Shown here: positions 19,988 to 22,033 of the stretch, piece after piece
Layout: the number at the start of each line of letters is the position of its first letter
Position numbering within the stretch: position 1 is the first letter of the stretch
NCBI GenBank assembly: GCA_005881885.1
Contig: VBDX01000140.1
Location: forward strand, 1-47,172
DNA from: Chloroflexota bacterium
GTDB taxonomy: Bacteria > Chloroflexota > Limnocylindria > P2-11E
Length of the DNA stretch: 47,172 nucleotides
Reading direction: 5' to 3'
The notes under the pieces: model-generated
Told to the model about the DNA's origin: nothing
Seen by the model: only the letters and a program-made list of their open reading frames with translations
Database searches by the model: none
Translations under genes and position numbers: made by a program

Positions 19988-20974
19988 GTGCGACCTGCGG
20001 CTGACCAGGCATGTCGGCTGAGGGATTTTTCTGTTGCTGAGATCGTGTGGGCTGCCGGGTTCTTTGACGGCGAAGGCTCGACCCTGATCCACGTCTCTGA
20101 TCCCGTTCGCGGGTACCTTCGCCTGGATGTAGTTGTCCCGCAGCATGGTGGCGCGCTACTCCCATCTGTCCTGACCCGATTTCAGGCGGCCGTCCTCGGT
20201 ACCGGCCGCATCGTCGGCCCGAACGACGACGGCATATACCGGTGGGAGAGTCGCAGTTTCGGCGAGGGTCAGGCCACCGTCGCGCTTCTGTGGCGATATC
20301 TCGGTCCTGTGAAGCGAGCTCAGGCCACGACCGCGATTCGTGAGTTCCTTGCTCAATACGCACCCGGCAAACGCAAGGCTCGCCCCACGCGACTCCGACT
20401 ACCGCTGCACGGAGTGCATCTCGAGCCCCAGCCCTCGACGTTCTCTGACGACGACACGGAGCGCATTTGGGCCGCCGGTTTTCTCGATGCAGAGGGCTGT
20501 TTCGGCGTCGTCCGCGCACTCCCTCGGAAGCGGGGCCCGACCTGGTACAGGATTCGAGCGTCCGCGAGCCAGCACGGCGAAGTGGGGTTACCGGCGCCGG
20601 TGCTCATGAGACTCAGAGCGGCGTTGGACGGCATGGGTCGCATCGAATGTCACGGCGAACCAGACGACTTCAAGTGGGTCGTCGAGGGCGAAGAGAGGAT
20701 CGAGCGGGTACTGGCTCGAGTCGGGCCGTGGTTAGGAGAGACAAAGCGCCTCCAGGCGAAAGAGGCGCTGGCGAGGTTCCGGGCCCAGACGCGTCTGAAG
20801 GGAGACGCCACACGGTGCGTGCGTGGCCATGTCTATACGGGCGTCGCCATGAAGGGTGGCCGCCTGCGCAGGATCTGCAACCAGTGCGAGCGGATCACTG
20901 ACCGGAGGCGTCGACCTGCTCAAGGGGTCCCGCCCCGGCAGTTCAAGAACGCGGCGCGCAGATACACTTTCTGA
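19988..20974 (+). CDS. LAGLIDADG-type homing endonuclease-like protein with C-terminal zinc finger
   Basis: This 328-residue protein has two LAGLIDADG helices, as in a single-chain endonuclease: EIVWAAGFFDGEGSTLIHV (about 18-36) and ERIWAAGFLDAEGCFGVVR (about 158-176), each with acidic residues at the catalytic position. The two halves are alike in layout. Near the C-terminus, CVRGHVYTG followed by RRICNQCERI resembles a Cys-His-Cys-Cys finger of HNH-type DNA-binding tails. It is free-standing, not inside an intron or intein, and ends 14 bases before tRNA-Pro. Function as a selfish endonuclease or a domesticated DNA-binding protein is inferred. Confidence 0.8.
   Translation: MRPAADQACRLRDFSVAEIVWAAGFFDGEGSTLIHVSDPVRGYLRLDVVVPQHGGALLPSVLTRFQAAVLGTGRIVGPNDDGIYRWESRSFGEGQATVALLWRYLGPVKRAQATTAIREFLAQYAPGKRKARPTRLRLPLHGVHLEPQPSTFSDDDTERIWAAGFLDAEGCFGVVRALPRKRGPTWYRIRASASQHGEVGLPAPVLMRLRAALDGMGRIECHGEPDDFKWVVEGEERIERVLARVGPWLGETKRLQAKEALARFRAQTRLKGDATRCVRGHVYTGVAMKGGRLRRICNQCERITDRRRRPAQGVPPRQFKNAARRYTF
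20963..20968 (+). promoter_or_regulatory. Putative -10 element of tRNA-Pro(GGG)
   Basis: TACACT lies in the last codons of the LAGLIDADG ORF (Tyr-Thr of RYTF) and 20 bases before the mature tRNA start. The same hexamer precedes the second tRNA-Pro at 40741. Confidence 0.4.
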
Positions 20975-20988
20975 CAAGACGCGTCGCT

Positions 20989-21064
<76 letters not shown>

Positions 21065-21110: not shown

Positions 21111-21743
21111 TTGATCGATCGCGCCCGCGCGCTCGCGCTTCTTCACGCTCGCATCCGAGCGTGCACGAAATGCGTCGACGCCGGGTACCTCGACCGCGCC
21201 CAGCCGATCGTGGCCGGATCCATCCGCGACCGGATCGCGATCATCGGCCAGGCACCAGGTGAGGTCGAGCTCACGACGGGAAAGCCGTTCAGCGGTCGCG
21301 CCGGCGCGGAGCTGCGGCGCTGGCTGGCGGAAGCGGGAATCGACGAAGACCATCTTCCATATCGCACGGCGATCACCAAATGCTTTCCGGGGAAGTCGCC
21401 AACCGGGAGCGGCGATCGTCGGCCGTCGCCACCAGAGATCGCGCTCTGCGCACCATGGCTCGAGAATGAGCTCGCGCTCCTGAAGCCTCGCGTCATCCTC
21501 CTCGTCGGCGGTCTCGCCATCGAACGGTTCTGGGGAAAGGTGTCACTCGAAAGTGCGGTCGGCACTGCGCGGGTGCAGGACGGAGTGACGTATGTCCCGC
21601 TCCCGCATCCGAGCGGTGCATCACGATGGTTGAACGATCCGGCGCATCGCGTGCTCCTCCATAAAGGACTCGGTCATCTACGCCGCGCGGCCCGCGCTCT
21701 TGACAGTCCTTCACGCGGGCGGACAATGCAGATCCGTAGGTGA
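21111..21743 (+). CDS. Uracil-DNA glycosylase family protein (family 4/5-like)
   Basis: This 210-residue enzyme is predicted to excise uracil from DNA in base-excision repair. The active-site motif is GQAPGEVELTTGKPFSGRAG, followed by RTAITKCFPG, and the DNA-intercalation motif is PLPHPSGASRWLN. Cysteines in ACTKC at the N-terminus, KCFPG and IALCAPWL fit an iron-sulfur cluster as in family 4/5 enzymes. HPSGAS rather than HPAxLL is closer to family 5. The start is TTG at 21111. The 3' end overlaps a strong promoter reading downstream. Confidence 0.85.
   Translation: MIDRARALALLHARIRACTKCVDAGYLDRAQPIVAGSIRDRIAIIGQAPGEVELTTGKPFSGRAGAELRRWLAEAGIDEDHLPYRTAITKCFPGKSPTGSGDRRPSPPEIALCAPWLENELALLKPRVILLVGGLAIERFWGKVSLESAVGTARVQDGVTYVPLPHPSGASRWLNDPAHRVLLHKGLGHLRRAARALDSPSRGRTMQIRR
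21700..21727 (+). promoter_or_regulatory. Sigma-70-type promoter upstream of the lysine-rich peptide
   Basis: A perfect -35 TTGACA (21700-21705), a 16-base spacer and GACAAT (21722-21727). It lies inside the uracil-DNA glycosylase 3' end and would start transcription near 21735, giving a leader of about 137 bases before the small ORF at 21872. Confidence 0.6.
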
Positions 21744-21853
21744 TGCTCACCCGATGATGACGACGCAAGGGCCGCGGCGCACCTTCCCCTCCACGATTTT
21801 CCGACCACGCTGCGACGCGTTGTTGATCCGCGCGTCGACGATCTCTTTTACGG

Positions 21854-21865
21854 AAGGGAGGTGAT
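21854..21865 (+). promoter_or_regulatory. Near-perfect Shine-Dalgarno sequence of the lysine-rich peptide
   Basis: GGAGGTGAT (21857-21865) matches nine bases of the 16S rRNA 3'-end complement. GGAGG ends ten bases before the ATG at 21872. It is the strongest ribosome-binding site in the window. Confidence 0.8.
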
Positions 21866-21871
21866 GACCCA

Positions 21872-21916
21872 ATGCCGATGAAGAAGAAGAAGGCCGCAAA
21901 GAAAAAGAAGAAGTAG
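21872..21916 (+). CDS. Lysine-rich micropeptide (14 residues)
   Basis: The whole peptide is MPMKKKKAAKKKKK: ten lysines in fourteen residues, then TAG. A consensus promoter (21700), an outstanding RBS (21857) and a perfect hairpin after the stop (21935-21956) bracket it, so it looks like a deliberate gene rather than chance. It uses AAG for most lysines, with one AAA. Very short polylysine ORFs of this type occur in other bacterial genomes, but I know of no assigned function. It could bind RNA, DNA, ribosomes or polyphosphate. Alternatively the reading frame may regulate translation as an attenuating poly-Lys stretch. Confidence 0.6.
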   Translation: MPMKKKKAAKKKKK

Positions 21917-21930
21917 TTCGGTCTAACTAG

Positions 21931-21960
21931 TGGAAGCGCCGCGGGCGGGCGGCGCTGCCA
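21931..21960 (+). terminator. Hairpin after the lysine-rich peptide
   Basis: AGCGCCGC, loop GGGCGG, GCGGCGCT forms a perfect 8-bp stem (21935-21956), extended by TGG/CCA across one mismatch. No T-run follows, so it may terminate inefficiently or stabilise the mRNA end. The rest of 21744-22046 shows a leader, this hairpin and the CAP gene promoter; I see no other gene. Confidence 0.5.
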
Positions 21961-22033
21961 CGCGCGGTACTAGTGCGCCGTTACAAAGGTCCCGCTGTTA
22001 CCGCCCTGACATAAGACTTTCGCCGGCGGGCCG

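Follow-up and report, generated by a model that had tools for sequence, protein, structure and literature searches.

We identified in the window, i.e., the whole stretch of 47,172 nucleotides analysed here, a polylysine ORF of 14 codons that is a real, conserved gene, of a kind that annotation pipelines are likely to skip. Related ORFs occur at two unlinked loci, A and B, of the same genomes, within one order of soil Chloroflexota, and comparison of their sequences indicates that the peptides are conserved at the protein level. Their most likely function, as the preliminary description had proposed, would be the binding of a polyanion, which is suggested by amino acid composition. More specifically, we propose with moderate confidence that this is a genuine micro-gene, one of two unlinked paralogues, yielding a constitutive polycation that acts like a free-standing lysine tail of histone H1 or HU.

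The window lies in contig C140 of a 3.36-Mb genome in 234 contigs, and its copy of locus A lies on the forward strand, as do the features that surround it. The promoter (21700-21727) consists of TTGACA at 21700-21705, a 16-nt spacer and GACAAT at 21722-21727. It is followed by a 5' leader (21734-21856), the Shine-Dalgarno sequence (SD) GGAGGTGAT (21857-21865), the ORF ATGCCGATGAAGAAGAAGAAGGCCGCAAAGAAAAAGAAGAAGTAG (21872-21916), which encodes MPMKKKKAAKKKKK, and a 3' hairpin (21929-21963). The nine nucleotides of the SD are complementary to the 3' end of the 16S rRNA. The short transcription unit described earlier is real: its promoter, SD, in-frame ORF and hairpin were all located at 21700-21963. 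Its leader is indeed long, at about 138 nt, and the peptide has nine lysines among its 14 residues rather than the ten first counted. This is the only ORF with at least 10 codons and at least 50% Lys in the 47 kb on both strands, and no such ORF arose in 100 Markov-shuffled windows. The promoter overlaps the 3' end of a gene encoding a protein of the uracil-DNA glycosylase superfamily (PF03167, 21111-21743), which is the upstream neighbour in this genus and lies outside the unit; the neighbour on the other side encodes a CAP-domain protein (PF00188, 22047-23702). Further upstream, an ORF at 19988-20974 scored slightly under the Pfam cut-off for LAGLIDADG_1, has two GFxDxEG-type motifs, and directly precedes a tRNA-Pro at 20989.

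A DNA search of the same genome revealed a second, unlinked copy, encoding MPAKKKKAKSSKKKK. This copy was overlooked by the preliminary description, as were the HTH_17 partner and the conservation of the hairpin, which exceeds that of all other DNA in locus A (see below). A pattern made of the SD, ATGCC and a run of Lys codons matched in 26 of the order's 29 genomes, with exactly two matches in most of them; the reversed control pattern had no match in the same 29 genomes. Locus A was recovered in 26 of these genomes, locus B in 23, and both in 22. Locus A comprises the strong SD GGAGGTGA, an in-frame Lys-rich ORF of 12-20 codons and the GGGCGG-loop hairpin. The motif GGAGGTGA alone is unremarkable (two occurrences in the window against 1.25 expected). 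It was found in all 26 copies of locus A, many of which were retrieved via the hairpin or the HTH gene, i.e., the SD was not used. The open, Lys-rich frame, whose absence from sister genomes, or disruption there beside a persisting hairpin, had been put forward as evidence that would speak against the gene, is also retained in 26 out of 26 copies.

Locus B follows the genes for an ECF sigma factor and a zf-HC2 anti-sigma factor. It has its own promoter-like sequence (TTGACAT...TGTGTCT), a GTGGCCA leader, an SD and a like ORF, and on its 3' side a nearly invariant GGCACCTTTCGCGA element precedes a U-tailed terminator. The transcripts of A and B have the SD and the ORF in common, but not the UTRs. 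The 3' element was seen at L144:1614-1669 and in 22 other genomes as GGCACCTTTCGCGA(A/T)CCC(G/A)CCGATCCG...CGGATCGG with a T-run, and could be an uncatalogued 3' UTR element or a small RNA. The relatives that carry names are Chloroflexi MAGs from soil, groundwater and lake; judging by these names and by GC content, the class is probably Ca. Limnocylindria. Outside the order, only G332 and G498 matched when we searched the class and the phylum with strict patterns, which may have missed the micro-ORF elsewhere. These two genomes, from one genus of another order, encode MAAKKKAAKKKKK with a strong SD (L117:1501 region in G332, L169 in G498), followed in G332 by a U-tailed terminator. They may represent a relative of the family or a convergence.

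The peptides have the form MP(A/K)KKK-(A/S/T,KK)n-K(K/H), with 12-20 residues. They contain 56-58% Lys, 17-21% Ala and no Arg, despite the GC-rich genomes, and their Lys codons are AAG in 437 cases and AAA in six. Changes in length correspond to KKxx units gained and lost in frame. The lengths of the A and B peptides are strongly correlated across the genomes having both (rho 0.957, n=22), and the C-terminal residue, H or K, matches between them in 21 of the 22 genomes (Fisher p 2.8e-5), G015 being discordant. We placed these C-termini on the sigma-factor tree of 22 genomes, leaving out G015. This required four changes for A and four for B, with only two concordant switches on well-supported branches, so that shared ancestry accounts for part, but not all, of the co-variation. 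Within a genome, the Lys/His switch happens jointly in A and B. Two genomes, G024 and G026, each encode one and the same peptide at A and B; where sense codons differ between the copies, in seven cases, the change is always synonymous. The Pro, Ala and Ser codons vary while the protein stays, and a Ser is swapped between TCC and AGC when G019 and G021 are compared. Between species, synonymous and nonsynonymous changes were counted in equal-length close pairs only.

The hairpin of locus A has a variable lower stem, a 7-bp upper stem and an invariant GGGCGG hexaloop. In the window the upper hairpin is GCGCCGC-GGGCGG-GCGGCGC (21936-21955), and the 4-bp lower stem is GTGG/CCAC. The exact 20-mer GCGCCGCGGGCGGGCGGCGC is present once per genome in 22 of the 29 genomes, always 16-23 nt past the stop codon of the Lys-rich micro-ORF. 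Four genomes that lack it but have the HTH_17 gene (G001, G019, G021 and G026) carry compensated stems, GCGCGGC/GCCGCGC(U) or GCGCCGU/ACGGCGC, and keep the loop. The upper stem is 100% paired throughout the 25 distinct sequences, with two pairs altered on both sides (C-G to G-C in three cases, C-G to U-A in one); none of 500 shuffles equalled the observed cells paired and covariation score. The lower stems re-form from unrelated sequences (GUGG/CCAC, GCGAUG/CAUCGC, GGUG/UACC). The stem-loop reported earlier is upheld, with the correction that it has no T-run, and the terminator scan of the window did not call it. Lacking a U-tract, it does not qualify as a standard intrinsic terminator, unlike the U-tailed terminators of locus B. 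Searches of Rfam gave only sub-threshold matches, none at the gathering score. Matches to the hairpin in Actinomadura, in a deltaproteobacterial MAG and in a planctomycete MAG were attributed to chance, as they have no adjoining SD and Lys-rich micro-ORF. We also considered a kissing interaction between the GGGCGG loop and the CCCGCC of the locus B 3' element, which was dropped because the pairing is broken in genus g2 (CCCACC), and a pairing of the locus B 3' CACCTTT with the SD, where both partners are invariant and the prediction was inconsistent.

In most genera the ORF of locus A lies directly behind an HTH_17 gene. Altogether, 16 genomes of the order yielded a homologue of this gene, which stands immediately before locus A wherever we read the region. 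In the genus of the window the HTH gene is retained only in G002, and the sister genomes without it have TTGACA and GACAAT (GAGAAT in one genome) at the position of the promoter. In G015, the region preceding the HTH gene (L026 2059-2983) contains a tRNA and an Fe(2+)-trafficking-like protein (PF04362), as well as, by eye only, a signal-peptidase-like protein and a Ni superoxide dismutase-like reading frame. In several of the HTH_17 genera that were read, a convergent gene comes next after the micro-ORF, which therefore usually ends its operon. The preliminary description also suggested a regulatory, ribosome-slowing ORF and saw room for an RNA element in the leader. Neither is supported. Within the genus, the leaders vary between about 35 and about 190 nt and do not align, their length and sequence being unlike that of the window beyond the nearest sister. 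In several other genera, moreover, the micro-ORF is directly followed by a convergent gene, which differs from the CAP gene found after the block in the window, and nothing constant lies downstream. Since the micro-ORF is usually operon-final and its leader is unconserved, it does not encode a leader peptide, be it for the CAP gene or for another. Leader peptides and attenuators do resemble the locus in having a short ORF followed by a hairpin, but differ in that here the micro-ORF is operon-final, has no constant downstream gene, and encodes a peptide kept in two unrelated transcripts.

How might such a peptide act? A strong promoter and SD would lead to an abundant micropeptide; it is from these start signals that we infer its abundance. 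As a disordered polycation of 12-20 residues, it would neutralise and compact nucleic acid. DNA would be the likeliest target, as for the free lysine-rich tails of histone H1, HU and the chlamydial Hc2, and the hairpin with the GGGCGG loop, located in the 3' UTR, might end, protect or regulate this one mRNA. The H1-like and HU-type tails (PAKKA, Hc2, AlgP) share with the micropeptide the Pro-Ala-Lys-Lys-type repeat, the replacement of Arg by Lys, a length that varies by whole repeats, e.g., by lysine-rich pentamers in Hc2 (PMC2848022), and the lack of a predicted fold. These tails are attached to a folded DNA-binding domain, whereas the micropeptide is the tail alone, of 12-20 aa, encoded separately at two loci. 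We found no match in PDB for one 20-aa homologue, a 14-mer without a fold being beyond homology testing, and none in Pfam or NCBIfam for the homologues of at least 20 aa. We prefer the nucleoid-tail reading because the use of Lys only in GC-rich DNA and the whole-repeat changes in size resemble the tails of H1, HU and Hc2 more than they resemble the Arg-containing ribosomal peptides.

The latter nevertheless provide the main, though less probable, alternative: a ribosome-associated basic peptide, stoichiometric on rRNA, which in this order would be the positional counterpart of the actinobacterial bS22 or of a comparable mini-protein, e.g., bL37 or eL41. In Actinomadura an HTH_17-like gene precedes the bS22 gene by about 370 bp, and over 73 aa its product shares 33% identity with the HTH protein encoded before locus A. 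Since the HTH_17 domain is very widespread, this linkage may be a coincidence. None of the 16 Chloroflexota genomes tested has a bS22 or bL37 above the cut-off. In Borrelia, annotation had missed bS22, a protein in which Lys and Arg make up 61% of the residues and which occupies a pocket of the 30S rRNA (PMC10618245). The bS22 family (AURKAIP1/COX24, NF047430) is thus alike in being encoded by an easily unannotated gene for a tiny basic peptide near an HTH_17 gene, but it has 33 aa, Arg and Lys, a fixed sequence and a single gene, and the homologues of at least 20 aa fail the profiles NF047430 and PF08213. The bL37 (NF047428/NF047429) and eL41-type mini ribosomal proteins are also very basic, with about 24-25 aa; they are Arg-rich with conserved non-basic residues, and no HMM match supported an identity with bL37. 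The micropeptide, in contrast to known ribosomal mini-proteins, has no Arg and no conserved non-Lys positions past the MP(A/K) start, its length varies from 12 to 20, and there are two copies per genome.

It is unlikely that the partner is another polyanion, such as polyphosphate or membrane phospholipid, or that the peptide is secreted, antimicrobial or toxin-like. Polylysine does bind any polyanion, and an action on polyphosphate granules has been reported for AlgP, which is lysine-rich and H1-like (PMC9239181). But we found no signal peptide, hydrophobic face, or immunity or antitoxin partner, the pattern is that of a conserved single-copy housekeeping gene, and locus B adjoins the ECF sigma pair. 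Even less probable is that the RNA is the product, as a small RNA or leader with a strong SD and a 3' hairpin whose ORF is translated incidentally or only to slow the ribosome. No DNA of locus A is better conserved than the hairpin and the SD, and the invariant GGCACCTTTCGCGA element ahead of the locus B terminator could be read in the same way. Yet, the UTRs of A and B differ while the peptides co-vary, synonymous changes prevail, there is no conserved downstream gene to regulate, and Rfam had no match above the gathering score. Finally, an accidental origin, or a plain AAG repeat in which no stop codon happens to occur, would fit the low complexity of the ORF but has a negligible probability, being contradicted by the conservation in 26 of the 29 genomes against none for the reversed control, by the lack of such ORFs in shuffled windows, and by the Pro, Ala and Ser codons that vary while the protein is kept.

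A bolder reading, which we regard as tentative at best, is that this is a previously unseen core component: two co-adapted unlinked micro-genes would produce one polylysine peptide that, in this order, substitutes for lysine tails or for a small ribosomal protein, and the single-copy GGGCGG hairpin would be a dedicated regulatory site rather than a terminator, e.g., for autoregulation by the peptide binding its own mRNA.

The conservation evidence is of a kind that is rare for an ORF of 14 codons: two loci, a reversed control with no match, paralogues with only synonymous differences, and a covarying hairpin. If the genes are what we propose, they would be among the shortest conserved protein genes of bacteria. 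They also offer a clear test between stand-alone, histone-tail-like polycations in bacteria and unlisted ribosomal mini-proteins. Free polylysine peptides, in that case, can be the products of dedicated, duplicated and co-evolving genes.
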